From an uncultured Candidatus Saccharibacteria bacterium (GTDB lineage: Bacteria > Patescibacteriota > Saccharimonadia > Saccharimonadales > Saccharimonadaceae): 64,000 bases of DNA. This document shows, one piece after another, positions 12,400-57,422 of the stretch. The first letter of the stretch is position 1; each line of letters opens with the position of its first letter. The notes beneath the pieces were generated by a model. The model was not told the DNA's origin. It saw nothing but the letters and a program-made list of their open reading frames with translations, and made no database searches. Made by a program: the position numbers and the translations under genes. The stretch covers positions 57,156 through 121,155 of the forward strand of contig CAMNGP010000001.1 of the NCBI GenBank assembly GCA_946538495.1, given 5' to 3'.

Positions 12400-12555
12400 T
12401 ATAATTAAGGGGCAATACATCAACATTAACAGTTTGGCAATACGCTAACCTTAGTTTCTATAAAAGGGAAAGTGGGACCCTCATCGGCCCAATTTTGGCC
12501 CCTTTATGGAAGCTAATGTTGGTGTATTGCAAACCGTATGGGGGTTCCATTTTTT
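12400..12555 (+). ncRNA. Structured leader RNA / attenuator candidate upstream of the methylase operon
   Basis: TATAAT at 12400-12405 predicts a start near 12411. The RNA then begins with an arm (12412-12430) that pairs with 12512-12530 over 19 positions, two of them G-U. Inside are an AT/GC helix (about 12460-12468 with 12499-12507) and a GGCC...GGCC hairpin. A second helix, 12474-12487 with 12534-12548, abuts six T and looks like a terminator; it cannot form together with the closing helix without a pseudoknot. GCAATAC occurs twice on the left and GTATTGC twice on the right (the last at 12587), allowing alternative pairing. The methylase start codon is at 12612. Confidence 0.5.
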
Positions 12556-12611
12556 GTGGTAAATGAATTGGGCCCTAGTAGTTGTCGTATTGCAGAAAGA
12601 AGTTTTCTGCA

Positions 12612-13274
12612 ATGCCCCAAAAGAATCAAAAAGTTGTAGAAAACTCTTCTTCACGGAAGAGTTTTTCTGTTAAGAAAGGTATTAAGTCGCGAGACCGCGT
12701 GCGGAATCGGGGCGAGGTTTTTACGGAGCTTCGGGAAATCAATAATATTCTGGACCTGACGGCGGATGCGCATCGGAATTATAAAGATCAGAGAATCTTG
12801 GAGCCGGCTTGCGGGAATGGAAACTTCTTGGTGGTGATACTGGAGAGGCGGCTTGCAGATATTAAAAAGGCAATTAAGAAAAAGAACCAAGATGATACGG
12901 AATTTGCAATACTAACGGCACTATCTACCATGTATGGCGTGGATATTATGCCGGATAATATCAAAGAGTGTCATGAACGGCTCAAATCAATAATTGAGAA
13001 GTTTTATAAAGAAAGAGTACCGACGAAAAATCGTAGGCCGGAGTTTTTTGATGCCGTGAAGGAGATATTGCGTACGAATATTCAGCTTGGTGACATGCTG
13101 AATGGTAAAGAGAAGATTTGTTTTGTGGAATATACGGTGCCGCGCGATTATTATTTCGTGCGGAATGAATATAGATTGGTGGATTTGGAATTAGGGATTT
13201 TGTCGTCGAAGAAACGAATAAAACCAACGCATTATTTAAAAATAGGAGGAGAAAATGCCAACGAATGTAAGTAA
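12612..13274 (+). CDS. N6-adenine methylase-like protein lacking the NPPY motif
   Basis: A 220-residue protein with a SAM-binding motif I (ILEPACGNGNFLVVIL, near residue 62) and an acidic motif II (YGVDIMP), so it has the Rossmann core of class I methylases. No (D/N)PPY catalytic motif follows; the protein ends after about 150 residues of core. It overlaps the next, complete methylase gene by 20 bases. It may be a specificity or partner subunit, or a degenerate methylase. The ATG at 12612 is chosen; a TTG at 12582 is in frame, and a TTGCAGAA/TTCTGCAA hairpin lies just before the ATG. Confidence 0.75.
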   Translation: MPQKNQKVVENSSSRKSFSVKKGIKSRDRVRNRGEVFTELREINNILDLTADAHRNYKDQRILEPACGNGNFLVVILERRLADIKKAIKKKNQDDTEFAILTALSTMYGVDIMPDNIKECHERLKSIIEKFYKERVPTKNRRPEFFDAVKEILRTNIQLGDMLNGKEKICFVEYTVPRDYYFVRNEYRLVDLELGILSSKKRIKPTHYLKIGGENANECK

Positions 13275-28539: not shown

Positions 28540-29817
28540 ATGAAAACCAAATCAAAGAAGATTTCTGATTCGCGTGTCGAAATTACCGTGACATTAGATA
28601 GCAAAGATTTAAAGCCGGCAAGAGAAAAGGCGCTCGCTAAGTTGGCTAAAGAAGTTAAAGTCGAAGGCTTCAGAAAGGGCAAAGTCCCTACGGAGGTGGC
28701 TGCCAAATTTATCCCTGAAAACGATCTAAACGCCGAAACAATTGATATCGCTGTACGTTCCACCGTAATTGAAGCGTTCCGCAAAGAATCAAAATCTCCA
28801 TTGGTTTTGCCTAGCGTTAATGTCACTAAGTATGTACCAGGCGAATCAGCGGAATACACCGCCGTGGCAGACATCGTGCCAGAAGTCAAACTGGGCGATT
28901 ACAAAAAACTCAACGTCAAGCACGAAGATGTCAAAATAACCGCCAAAGATGTTAACGGTATTTTAGAAAACTTAGCCAGCTCTTACGCCGAGAAAAAAGT
29001 AGTGCGCCGTGCCGCCAAGCTTACCGATGAGGTAATTATCGACTTTGTCGGAAAAAAGGATGGTGAAGCGTTTAAGGGAGGCTCGGCCAAGGATTATCAC
29101 CTGGTATTAGGTTCAAAATCATTTATCCCAGGATTTGAAGATGGCATTGTCGGCCACGAATCTGGCGATAAGTTTGATTTAAAATTAACTTTCCCTAAAG
29201 ATTATGGTGTAAAGGATTTAGCTGGAGCTAAAGTTGTCTTTGAGGTACTCTTGAAGCAAGTTAACGAAGTCACGAAGGCCAAGATTGATGACGAAATGGC
29301 TAAAAAATGTGGTCCCTTTAAGACTTTGGCCGAACTTAAAGATGATATCAAGAAAAACCTTGAGGCCCAAAGCAAGCACCAAGCTCAAGAAAAGCTCAAA
29401 GATCAGTTGGTGGCTGAATTGGTAAAGGTTTCTAAGGTTCCTGCACCTGAGATTCTGATTGACGATCAAGTTAAAATGATTCGCGACGACATGACCAGAA
29501 ACGCCGCTGCGCAGGGAATGAGTTTCGAGGATTATCTCAAAGCTAACCAAGAGACCGTAGAGAACTGGGAGAAAGAGGCCAGAAAAATCGCCGAGACCCG
29601 TGTTAAGGCTTCGCTAGCTTTGCAAACTTTAGCCGTAGAACAAAAAATTACCGTTTCTGACGATTTAGTTAACGCAAAGATCGCTGAACTTCGCGATGTA
29701 TACAAAAAATCCCCCGAAGCCTTAAAGAGCCTAAAGGATCCAAATGTTAAAATGGATATTAAAAACAGAATGATTATCGAGGCAACATTAGATTATCTCG
29801 TGAAAACCAATTCTTAG
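28540..29817 (+). CDS. tig: Trigger factor
   Basis: A ribosome-bound chaperone and peptidyl-prolyl isomerase of 425 residues. The N-terminal ribosome-binding signature GFRKGKVP is at about residue 44. The FKBP domain (about 150-235) and the long helical C-terminal arms (TigC) follow. Length is usual. AGGAG precedes the ATG and a TATAAT lies just upstream, between the FAD oxidase stop and this gene. A strong terminator follows. Confidence 0.95.
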   Translation: MKTKSKKISDSRVEITVTLDSKDLKPAREKALAKLAKEVKVEGFRKGKVPTEVAAKFIPENDLNAETIDIAVRSTVIEAFRKESKSPLVLPSVNVTKYVPGESAEYTAVADIVPEVKLGDYKKLNVKHEDVKITAKDVNGILENLASSYAEKKVVRRAAKLTDEVIIDFVGKKDGEAFKGGSAKDYHLVLGSKSFIPGFEDGIVGHESGDKFDLKLTFPKDYGVKDLAGAKVVFEVLLKQVNEVTKAKIDDEMAKKCGPFKTLAELKDDIKKNLEAQSKHQAQEKLKDQLVAELVKVSKVPAPEILIDDQVKMIRDDMTRNAAAQGMSFEDYLKANQETVENWEKEARKIAETRVKASLALQTLAVEQKITVSDDLVNAKIAELRDVYKKSPEALKSLKDPNVKMDIKNRMIIEATLDYLVKTNS

Positions 29818-29823
29818 TCAAAG

Positions 29824-29846
29824 GCCCCTCGTCGCAGGGGCTTTTT
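29824..29846 (+). terminator. Terminator after tig
   Basis: GCCCCT and AGGGGC form a hairpin with a six-base loop, followed by five T. Confidence 0.9.
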
Positions 29847-29878
29847 GATGTTTTTTTATTGACGTTAGAAGAAATATG

Positions 29879-30032
29879 GTATAATGATATTGCTATATTC
29901 AATCATTCCGTTCTGCGTCAGTGTATCCTAGGCCGATCGTTAGAAATGATGGCACCATAAGGCACCGTCTTTTGCGAACGGTTATAAACTGGCGCAGAAT
30001 GATTGTATATAGCACCTTGTGGTGCCATTTTT
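29879..30032 (+). ncRNA. Structured leader RNA / attenuator candidate upstream of the FISUMP gene
   Basis: TATAAT at 29879-29884 predicts a start near 29891. The first 18 bases (29891-29908) pair with 29997-30014 with one mismatch, and the helix can extend with 29911-29922 against 29988-29999. The interior holds two small hairpins (GCC...GGC and ACCGT...ACGGT). A terminator hairpin GCACC-TTGT-GGTGC (30012-30025) runs into CA and five T. Its 3' strand can instead pair with ATGGCACC at 29949-29956. The surface-protein ATG is at 30089, so this may be a cis-regulatory leader or a separate small RNA. Confidence 0.5.
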
Positions 30033-30088
30033 ATGCATGCCTTTTATAAATGGCACCGCATGATCAGGTGACTAAGATGAGGTAATGC

Positions 30089-31534
30089 ATGAAGAAAAAC
30101 ATAACATTAAGTTTAGAAAACATAACAGACCATTTAACAGGGGCCAAAAAAATTATAATATTGTGTTTTCTAATCTCAACGTTATGTTTTTTTAATTCGG
30201 ACGATTCTTCCGCCCTCACCTACCAACAAGACATCCCAGTCTCATTCACCTTTAATTCTTCAGTCGCACTCTCCCTCTCTTCTGCCGATCTCAATATCTA
30301 CAATCTCTCCCCAGGCACCAGCAGCGACAGCAATATCGTCACAGTGACTGCTACTTCCAACAATTCCACTGGCTATGTTATCACTGCTACCGTAGGCGAT
30401 AATACTCATAGTAATCCATCCTATAGCAATACCAGCCTTAACCACACTAGCAATACTGGCAACACCTTCACTAGTCTAGCCACTACAGCTAGCTTAGCTA
30501 GCCTCACAGCAGACAATACTTGGGGCTATACTATTTCTGAAGATGGTAATACTTGGTCTAACTATTCTGGCCTGCCCATCTACACTGCCGAATCTGGCAA
30601 AACCTTAAAAGAGCTAAACACTAACGGCACCACCTCCTTTCAATTTAAAATCGGTGCCAAAGCTTCTAACACCCAGCCTTCTGGCGAATACAGAAATGTG
30701 ATCAATTTTACACTCACCACTAATGCAGTAGACAGCACCTATTACATGCAAGATGTAGGAACATGGGGAGATTCCATCCCTGCTGGCGCCGAAATCACCG
30801 CCGTAGATAACCGTGATGGTAAATCCTACACCGTAGCTAGACTTGCTGATGGGAACCTTTGGATGACCCAAAACCTAGATCACGACATAGACTCCACCAA
30901 GACTTACACTCCAGCTGATACTGATATTCCAGCCAACTGGACGCCAAGTCTCTCTACCTATGCTGCTAATGATACTACTTGGGAGTTTTCAACCACCACG
31001 CCAGAATCTTACGATCCAGGTACGCTATATTGGAGCGGCACACCAAACGATAATATTCCAGCATCGTCAGGCAATTCTCATTATCACTTAGGCAACTATT
31101 ACAACTGGTCTGCAGCCGTGGCTATGAACAACACTTCATCATATACTACCAATCAGACTCTAATAGACCAATCTATTTGTCCAGCTGGCTGGACTCTGCC
31201 TAGAGTTGGCTACGGTGAGGATACTTTCTACGGACTTTGGAGCGAATATGGATATGACGACAATAGTAGCGCCTTTAGCAGCATTTCTACTTTAACTGGC
31301 TCGCCTGCCTACTTTGCTCCTACCGGCAGTTGGGGCGGCTCGTTTGACACCATCGGCGATGGCGGGCTCTTTTGGTCGCCCGTCGTGGGGGCTAGCAACT
31401 CTTCCTACTACGCCGGCTTCAATATGGACGGCGATGCCTACCCGTCCGACGGCGATACCTTCATCCGCGACTACGGTAACTCTATCCGTTGTGTAGCCCG
31501 CCCCGTTACTTCTACGCTTCAGTGGAGCCCTTAG
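30089..31534 (+). CDS. FISUMP-type exported surface protein (paralogue 1)
   Basis: A 481-residue secreted protein. An N-terminal hydrophobic segment (about 19-38) ends near SSALTYQQDIP. Residues 45-215 are a Ser/Thr/Asn-rich beta domain. Residues 225-475 match the Fibrobacter succinogenes major paralogous (FISUMP) pattern, with YTVARLADGNLWMTQNLD and a C-terminal SIRCVARPVTSTLQW. No sorting signal is seen. A paralogue of nearly the same length lies inverted at 56019-57422. The two also share their 3' flanking DNA. Likely a surface adhesin or decoration protein; function unproven. Confidence 0.8.
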   Translation: MKKNITLSLENITDHLTGAKKIIILCFLISTLCFFNSDDSSALTYQQDIPVSFTFNSSVALSLSSADLNIYNLSPGTSSDSNIVTVTATSNNSTGYVITATVGDNTHSNPSYSNTSLNHTSNTGNTFTSLATTASLASLTADNTWGYTISEDGNTWSNYSGLPIYTAESGKTLKELNTNGTTSFQFKIGAKASNTQPSGEYRNVINFTLTTNAVDSTYYMQDVGTWGDSIPAGAEITAVDNRDGKSYTVARLADGNLWMTQNLDHDIDSTKTYTPADTDIPANWTPSLSTYAANDTTWEFSTTTPESYDPGTLYWSGTPNDNIPASSGNSHYHLGNYYNWSAAVAMNNTSSYTTNQTLIDQSICPAGWTLPRVGYGEDTFYGLWSEYGYDDNSSAFSSISTLTGSPAYFAPTGSWGGSFDTIGDGGLFWSPVVGASNSSYYAGFNMDGDAYPSDGDTFIRDYGNSIRCVARPVTSTLQWSP

Positions 31535-56018: not shown

Positions 56019-57422
56019 CTACCACTGAAGTGTAGAAGTAACGGGGCGAGCAACACAACGAACAGAATGACCATATTCACGGTCGTCGAAGGCGGTAGGA
56101 TTAGCAAGGTTGTCCATATTAAAAGCGGCGCTGAATGATGTGGCCTCGTCTTCTATGACGGAGGATTCTGCGACGGGAGACCAGAAATAACCACTCGAGC
56201 CAAACACCGAGAAGGAACCACTCCAATCGCCAGTAGGGGCAAAATAGGCAGGCGAGCCAGTAATGGCGGAAATATCACTGAATTCATGACTATTATTATC
56301 GTATCCATATTCTCTCCATAATGAAAAGAAAGTATCTTCGCCGATGCCCGCCCGTGGTAAAGTCCAGCCAGATGGGCAGATAGATTGGTCTACTAAGGCT
56401 GTAGTAGTATACGCCGAGGAGCTATTCATTGCCACCGCTGCTGTCCAGTTATAGTAATTACCTAAATGATAGTGTGAATTGCCGGATGATACTGGGGTAG
56501 AATCATTCGCAATGCCACTCCAATATAAAGTACCTGGGTCATAAGACTCTGGAGCAGCAATAGAGCCATTCCAGGTGGTGGTTGTATATGTAGAAGTACT
56601 CGGAGTCCAATTGGCTGAAATATCGGTATCTTGCGGAGTGTAGGTTCTAGTAGAATCTATATCATGATCTAGATTTTGGGTCATCCAAAGGTTCCCATCA
56701 GCAAGTCTAGCTACGGTATATGTTTTGTCGTCCCTACTGTCTATGGCGGTAATTTCAGAACCGGCGGTAACGGAGCCTCCCCAAGTAGCAACGTCTTGCA
56801 TGTAATAAGTTGGATCAGGAGCAGCATTACTAGTTACCGTAAAATTAATCACATTATTATATTCACCAGAAGGTTGGGTATTAGAAGCTTTAGCACCGAT
56901 TTTAAATTGGAAGGAGGTAGTACCATTAGTATTAGATTCTTTTAAGGTCTTACCAGCTTCTGCTGTGTAGATTGGTAAACCTGAATAGTTAGCCCAAGTA
57001 TTACCATTATCAGAAATAGTATAGCCCCAAGTATTATCATTAGTTATATCAGCTAGGCTTGCATTAGTAGCTAGACTAGTAAAGGTACTACCAGTATTAC
57101 TTTTATGGTTTAGACTAGTATTACTAAAGGAAGGATTAGAATGGGTATTATCTCCTACCGTAGCAGTAACTACATAGCCAGTACTATTGTTGGAGGTAGC
57201 GGATACCGTGATAATGTTACTATCTGCTACAGTACCAGGAACTAGATTATTTATCCTAAGATCGGCAGAGGAGAGTGTAAGAATAATAGAAGAGTTAAAG
57301 GTAAATGAGACTGGGATGTCTTGTTGGTAGGTGAGGGCGGAGGTGGAGGGAACATTTGCCGCCGCAGACAACAAAAACAATCCTATTGCCGTGAATTTTA
57401 AAAATGTTTTCTTTTTATACAT
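56019..57422 (-). CDS. FISUMP-type exported surface protein (paralogue 2)
   Basis: A 467-residue secreted protein. The signal peptide (about 1-29) ends near STSALTYQQDIP. The Ser/Thr-rich beta domain (about 35-205) and the FISUMP domain (about 215-465) match paralogue 1 along the whole length, with clear conservation at LADGNLWMTQNLDHDIDST and at the C-terminus. Codons differ at many positions, so the duplication is not recent. AAGGAAA precedes the ATG. It lacks the long structured leader of paralogue 1. Confidence 0.8.
   Translation of the reverse strand: MYKKKTFLKFTAIGLFLLSAAANVPSTSALTYQQDIPVSFTFNSSIILTLSSADLRINNLVPGTVADSNIITVSATSNNSTGYVVTATVGDNTHSNPSFSNTSLNHKSNTGSTFTSLATNASLADITNDNTWGYTISDNGNTWANYSGLPIYTAEAGKTLKESNTNGTTSFQFKIGAKASNTQPSGEYNNVINFTVTSNAAPDPTYYMQDVATWGGSVTAGSEITAIDSRDDKTYTVARLADGNLWMTQNLDHDIDSTRTYTPQDTDISANWTPSTSTYTTTTWNGSIAAPESYDPGTLYWSGIANDSTPVSSGNSHYHLGNYYNWTAAVAMNSSSAYTTTALVDQSICPSGWTLPRAGIGEDTFFSLWREYGYDNNSHEFSDISAITGSPAYFAPTGDWSGSFSVFGSSGYFWSPVAESSVIEDEATSFSAAFNMDNLANPTAFDDREYGHSVRCVARPVTSTLQW

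Follow-up and report, generated by a model that had tools for sequence, protein, structure and literature searches.

What does the DNA between the trigger factor gene and the secreted-protein gene behind it encode, and could it control that second gene? In the 64,000-nucleotide stretch of DNA from a gut Saccharibacterium analysed here (the window), a promoter-like element is followed at this place by a long inverted repeat and a terminator-like hairpin. The parts of the region, with the leader at 29891-30036, are given below with the basis for each in brackets.

28540-29817, strand not given: trigger factor gene (Pfam match)
29820-29845, plus strand: trigger-factor terminator, setting the leader apart from the upstream gene (terminator scan)
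29877-29885, plus strand: extended -10 promoter element TGGTATAAT (sequence; TG enrichment in the family)
29880-29885, plus strand: TATAAT of the leader (read in the sequence)
29891-29892, plus strand: predicted transcription start (fold, family covariation)
29891-29908, plus strand: 5' strand of the closing helix, P1 (fold and family covariation)
29912-29923, plus strand: 5' strand of the middle helix (tctgcgtcagt), with its partner at about 29985-29996 (fold)
29949-29962, plus strand: copy1, ATGGCACCATAAGG, at the rod tip, the complement of copy2 (sequence, duplex energy, covariation)
29997-30014, plus strand: 3' strand of P1 (sequence and fold)
30012-30032, plus strand: local terminator hairpin GCACC-TTGT-GGTGC (30012-30025), then CA and a U-run at 30028-30032 (sequence, terminator scan)
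30015-30028, plus strand: copy2, CCTTGTGGTGCCAT, predicted 3' strand of a long-range copy1:copy2 terminator stem (alignment, duplex energies)
30048-30059, plus strand: copy3, AAATGGCACCGC, downstream of the terminator (fold, duplex energy; copy3-like elements in the family)
30089-31534, plus strand: secreted-protein gene with a Fib_succ_major-like domain (Pfam PF09603, E 5.8e-4, below the curated cut-off)

An earlier note on this DNA had named a TATAAT, an 18-bp helix (one mismatch) that starts on the predicted first base, an interior complement of the terminator, and a U-run; all of these were found where it placed them. P1 joins 29891-29908 to 29997-30014 over 18 bp with a single U-U mismatch (29899/30006); its end coordinates are accurate to 1-2 bases, and the last bases of its 3' strand coincide with the 5' arm of the local terminator hairpin. 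The interior complement had been described as 8 nt matching the 3' strand of that hairpin. It was present at 14 nt, spanning the terminator loop as well as the 3' arm. Computed energies were -26.6 kcal/mol for the copy1:copy2 duplex and -8.3 kcal/mol for the local hairpin, and in a read-through RNA copy3 could pair with copy2 at -19.4 kcal/mol. The 145-nt stretch folded at -55.6 kcal/mol (z -5.2; 0 of 200 shuffles as low), and z reached -7.4 once the second, downstream hairpin was included. No promoter was seen 3' of the window terminator.

The window genome is a draft assembly of 579 kb that is 79% complete. About half of it (289 kb) was scanned on both strands, blind to sequence, for a -10, a helix at the start site, a U-run and an interior complement. 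Only 12400 and 29880 scored high on both architecture criteria of the scan. The first of these is the locus that had been put forward as having the same geometry, and that description was correct:

12400-12405, plus strand: -10 element of the second-subfamily leader (read in the sequence)
12411-12559, plus strand: second-subfamily leader (sequence, fold, duplex energies)
12612-13274, plus strand: start of a restriction-modification operon behind the 12411 leader, an MmeI/Eco57I-type methyltransferase

P1 of the 12411 leader pairs GCAATACATCAACATTAA... with ...TAATGTTGGTGTATTGC, a further 5' strand reads GGCAATACGC..., and copy1 (AAAGTGGGACCCTCATCGG) and copy2 (CCGTATGGGGGTTCCA) are followed by the U-run. 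The 29891 and 12411 leaders were confirmed to be unrelated in sequence, and they represent two subfamilies with a common architecture.

The first relatives of the 29891 leader came from a DNA search whose matches were then read, which gave a dozen leaders on the same plan. GCACC-N3-6-GGTGCC-N-TTTTT served as the search pattern. It was present in 51 of the 174 genomes of the genus, with up to 35 occurrences per genome, and the reversed control pattern gave one match in total. We collected 167 places, 157 of which had the helix shortly after a -10, and these yielded 116 distinct leaders. Family membership was defined by the pattern together with architecture scans; rod lengths are highly variable. 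Clear relatives of the 12411 leader were found in about ten genomes.

Leader-bearing relatives are named Candidatus Saccharibacteria, and most come from sheep, goat or cattle gut. In 393 genomes of the order, two copy2-like matches fell outside the genus, both plain terminators by sequence, and no rod was present at the one that was read in context. A search of 2.9 million viral contigs for a phage origin gave no matches, and Rfam at the gathering threshold matched neither the window nor 20 member loci. Judged by their sequences, the leaders look like a previously undescribed RNA family restricted to one genus, in which rod sequence differs from locus to locus and shape is constant. Leaders were also seen on rabbit-gut contigs labelled Dysosmobacter, Clostridia and Oscillospiraceae (L134, L137, L150), which are probably misbinned Saccharibacteria.

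Across the family P1 starts mostly 3-6 nt past the -10, and the stretch of RNA spanning P1 through copy2 measures about 124 nt. TG stands ahead of the -10 in 94 of 113 members, compared with 33 of 142 TATAAT or TACAAT sequences in the window at large. The common predicted fold consists of P1 (about 14-20 bp), a short A-rich 5' bulge, P2, an AUUUU 5' bulge or small hairpin, P3 and an A-rich internal loop, with copy1 carried at the rod tip, where it often closes a GNRA-like tetraloop. The U-rich AUUUU bulge occurs in 88 of 113 members (32 expected) and is absent from the window leader; outside copy1 and copy2, this bulge and an A-rich stretch were the only enriched elements. Downstream of the U-run, 90 of 150 members have a copy3-like element and 40% have none. 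Guanine makes up only 7% of the 5' strand of P1, so wobbles nearly always place U on the 5' strand and G on the 3' strand. P1 often has one such U-G wobble around pair 9-11, and the U-U mismatch of the window leader lies close to this position.

In the 116 leaders each of the first 14 P1 positions is paired in 94-100% of cases, where composition would predict 40-62%, and several pair types occur at each. Of 14 pairs, a 5' strand forms 13.8 with its own 3' strand and 10.3 with that of another leader, even with the register re-optimised. For 45 leaders, a gap-free alignment was built that comprised both P1 strands, copy1 and copy2 and omitted the variable interior. In this alignment P1 (16 bp) and copy1:copy2 (14 bp) together were 97.2% paired, and partners slid out of register were 34-47% paired. 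Double-change cells numbered 197, against 47 in shuffles. Double changes fell at 17 of the 30 pairs, 13 of 16 in P1 and four in copy1:copy2. P1 in the 116 leaders tolerates U-G wobbles and not mismatches, so selection acts on the RNA.

This pattern bears on whether the inverted repeats might act as DNA, as a small mobile element or an invertible segment. The many copies per genome and the copies beside contig ends would fit such an element. The repeats vary by copy and accept U-G pairs while rejecting mismatches, neither of which recombinases or transposases would need, and a promoter stands at a fixed distance with a gene behind it in the same direction. Neither shared terminal repeats nor identical DNA inverted repeats were found; P1 is locus-specific and uses U-G pairs. 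A DNA element was already disfavoured and is the least probable of the readings considered here.

In copy1:copy2 the covarying pairs sit in the terminator loop and at the edges. Insertions and deletions are matched on both sides (GTTTAGG/CCTAGAC, GTTCAGG/CCTGAGC), and AC/GT edges also occur. Within single genomes, a leader's own copy2 fits its copy1 better than the copy2 of other leaders does (33 vs 9, p 8e-6), which indicates that copy1 and copy2 pair in cis. The predicted leader structure and the cis pairing are well supported by these comparisons. The suggestion that the two loci stand for a class of cis-regulatory RNA, which the earlier note would have abandoned had covariation been lacking, also gains support: compensatory changes are present, and relatives of both subfamilies carry them.

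The same note had offered two small RNAs as the other choice, and each leader could be mainly a stand-alone small RNA of about 145 nt whose tip and tail act in trans, for example through copy3, so that members cross-regulate. A terminated leader would be just such an RNA. Copy2 is uniform in many genomes (11 of 11 in G005, 9 of 9 in G009); copy1 and copy3 have the same sense, so that the copy2 of one RNA could reach the copy3 of another mRNA; and one leader (L045) precedes relA, which has a TATAAT of its own. However, within a genome copy1 pairs better with the copy2 of its own leader than with that of another leader, a same-strand gene lies directly behind almost every leader, and gene conversion of the downstream gene would also account for a uniform copy2. 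We therefore regard action in trans as unlikely. Kissing antisense pairs such as RNAI/RNAII and CopA/CopT likewise consist of two hairpins whose loops are complementary and whose pairing can spread into a full duplex; here, in contrast, a single transcript contains both partners, and they match best in cis.

In the second subfamily copy1 and copy2 change in concert (GTGGGA/TTCCAT, ATGGGG/CCCCAT, ACGGGG/CCCCGT). Their duplex, at -28 to -32 kcal/mol, is flush with the U-run, and the local hairpin reaches merely -2 to -5 kcal/mol; the averages for the first subfamily are -27 kcal/mol for copy1:copy2 and -7 kcal/mol for the local hairpin. Since copy1:copy2 is common to both subfamilies and the local hairpin is negligible in the second, we take copy1:copy2 as the probable functional terminator stem.

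Fluoride, preQ1-I and ZTP switches have a hairpin loop that pairs with the tail forming the terminator. The leaders share this topology with these H-type pseudoknot riboswitches (fluoride/crcB, preQ1-I, ZTP), in that the loop of a 5' hairpin pairs with a terminator-forming tail, and by eye the TGGCACCGC of copy1 and copy3 looks like a T-box core. The leaders might thus be diverged T-boxes or small pseudoknot riboswitches, or offshoots of another known leader class. However, they have a rod of about 45 bp rather than a small aptamer, and only the pairing strands are conserved; no conserved ligand core was found outside them. As in T-box leaders, a TGGCACCGC-like strand is complementary to the terminator. 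Unlike T-box leaders, these showed no stem I with a specifier loop and matched no T-box covariance model; U and C vary where the CCA end of a tRNA would pair, no tRNA-related gene follows, and the second subfamily lacks the T-box-like sequence. Rfam, silent at its gathering threshold for the window and 20 member loci, gave no T-box or riboswitch match for the window leader even at E up to 10. Descent from a known class is accordingly very improbable.

Intrinsic-terminator attenuators with alternative pairing, the trp- and pyr-type leaders, have been surveyed (PMC2965389). They share with the present leaders a promoter, a structured leader, a U-run ahead of the gene and a strand complementary to the terminator. 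The leaders described here differ in having no leader peptide or known effector, in their long rod of free sequence and fixed layout with many copies per genome, and in that the complementary strand forms a stem flush with the U-run.

We consider it likely that the leaders are cis-acting transcription attenuators in which the real terminator stem is copy1:copy2 running into the U-run, and the rod presents copy1. An upstream extended -10 at a fixed distance and a downstream same-strand gene, a G+C-rich stem with a U-run between promoter and start codon, and an alternative partner for the terminator strand, with covariation, were all found. RNA polymerase would initiate at the first base of P1, and the nascent RNA would fold into the rod of about 45 bp with copy1 at its tip. 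As soon as the rod closed, copy2 would be made, complementary to copy1 over 14-16 nt. Copy2 and the U-run would then act as an intrinsic terminator in one of two forms: the long-range copy1:copy2 stem, in which the rod persists and a giant pseudoknot or clamp results, or the weaker local hairpin. Termination would release an RNA of about 145 nt; read-through would give an mRNA in which copy3 could mask copy2. The split between the two would set expression of a surface protein in the first subfamily and of a restriction-modification operon in the second. We infer termination, the role of copy1:copy2 as its main stem, and a signal or folding kinetics as what decides between termination and read-through. 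No ligand pocket, signal or binding protein was identified for the leaders.

The predicted rod averages -52 kcal/mol. Replacing the rod tip and local hairpin by copy1:copy2, with the rod kept and before any pseudoknot penalty, gains more than 5 kcal/mol in 114 of 116 leaders. Counting against the attenuator model, the rod would have to be bent or partly opened for its tip to reach copy2. A fold-back geometry, in which the lengths of the lower and upper rod would rise together, was not supported, the lengths being negatively correlated. The 40% of members without copy3, the window leader without a U-rich bulge, and the fact that most Fib_succ_major genes in leaderless genomes manage without a leader also count against the model. 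Messenger RNAs are classically stabilised by a helix that closes on the 5'-terminal nucleotide. On that ground the rod could serve as a structured 5' UTR, protecting the mRNA or preventing its breakdown, and the U-run would not terminate in vivo; a read-through leader could indeed fold fully. This would leave unexplained both the conserved 14-nt copy1:copy2 complementarity and the U-run directly after copy2 in both subfamilies, and we regard it as improbable.

Nearly all leaders examined directly precede a gene on the same strand, with a median of 69 nt from U-run to ATG. At 29891 the ATG (30089) lies 197 nt from 29892, in agreement with the roughly 200 nt reported earlier; the similar distance at 12411, which had been read as shared geometry, is a coincidence, given this median and the wide range in the family. 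The downstream proteins have a hydrophobic N-terminus in 108 of 125 cases. By strict count, 16 of 20 that were scanned match Fib_succ_major (10/10 and 6/10, the window gene being additional), the 20 including two atypical neighbours, L045 and L053. The idea that the leader is an intrinsic part of Fib_succ_major genes was rejected, as it was absent from 40 upstream regions in genomes without the copy2 pattern. Many such genes can occur in a genome without a leader, which suggests that the leader is a lineage-specific control layer. Two paralogues of the 30089 gene, at window positions 56019-57422 (minus strand) and at G000:C1:161953-163374 (minus strand), encode proteins 76% and 63% identical to its product, and both have a near-identical 42-nt stretch after the signal peptide. 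Reading the sequence upstream of the 56019 paralogue revealed no leader. In L054, L272, L275, L279 and L284, other palindromic elements lie between the terminator and the Fib_succ_major start; the leader is longer there, and rod and copy2 are intact.

Second-subfamily leaders precede two unrelated restriction-modification types. MmeI/Eco57I-type operons follow the leader in the window and, by N-terminal similarity, in G003, G074 and G225. Putative type III Mod methyltransferases, assigned by reading the protein sequences, follow it in G045, G081 and G194, with a short open end in G198. The similarity of G003 to the window starts at the -10 of the 12411-type leader, suggesting that promoter, leader and operon moved together. 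In G005, unrelated rods are followed by an identical 118 nt from copy2 up to the contig ends (L249/L254, L255/L257), and the window-leader rod is present in two further genomes, before an orthologous gene in G047 and before a different one in G055. From these cases, promoter-plus-rod units and genes seem to have been reshuffled at copy2.

A retroelement template as the source of the rods was rejected: G000 has a leader and no reverse transcriptase match, and the rods share no template. Reverse transcriptases (RVT_1) do lie within a few kb of Fib_succ_major genes at G063:C40, G084:C1, G182:C24, G047:C12 and G059:C14, suggesting diversity-generating retroelements that act on Fib_succ_major proteins. 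None was found in the window's own genome.

On/off variation classically affects surface proteins and restriction-modification systems, and by this analogy stochastic termination at the leaders would be plausible. A bolder and rather doubtful extension of the attenuator model is a genome-wide RNA switchboard. In it, 10-35 surface-protein genes and restriction-modification operons would stand under interchangeable promoter-plus-rod units, genes would be swapped by recombination at copy2, and termination would be stochastic or set by one factor that reads the tip. If true, surface expression could vary without a change in DNA.

The literature searched contained no account of surface-protein control in host-dependent Saccharibacteria, and no regulatory RNA of this leader kind. 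Up to 35 copies of a cis-RNA before surface proteins in a genome of about 0.9 Mb, with a sister family before restriction-modification operons, would amount to a principal tier of gene control in such reduced genomes. Tools for expression control are lacking for Saccharibacteria (PMC11665869), and there the leaders would offer a ready-made expression switch. The rods also make up a rare natural data set, with more than 100 RNAs of widely differing sequence and one shape.

Other repeats were noted along the way. At window 30095-30190 the start of the Fib_succ_major coding sequence is spanned by a hairpin formed from a dispersed repeat, AAACATAACATTAAGTTT..TTTAACAGGGG... This repeat is also present at L022, L023, L025, L028, L030, L032 and L033 in genomes of the same genus, where it lies between genes or apparently inside reading frames (queA-like in L030, cysS-like in L032) and resembles an in-frame palindromic element. 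Long near-perfect palindromes, GGAAAGTAAGAATTTTAACGTGCCC..GGGCACG..AATTCTTACTTTCC, occur in at least two places (G000:C2, L298 19216-19340 and 8438-8560) and represent another dispersed hairpin element. In a same-genus genome, L057 520-567 gave an Rfam match to DUF3800-XI RNA beside a tRNA.
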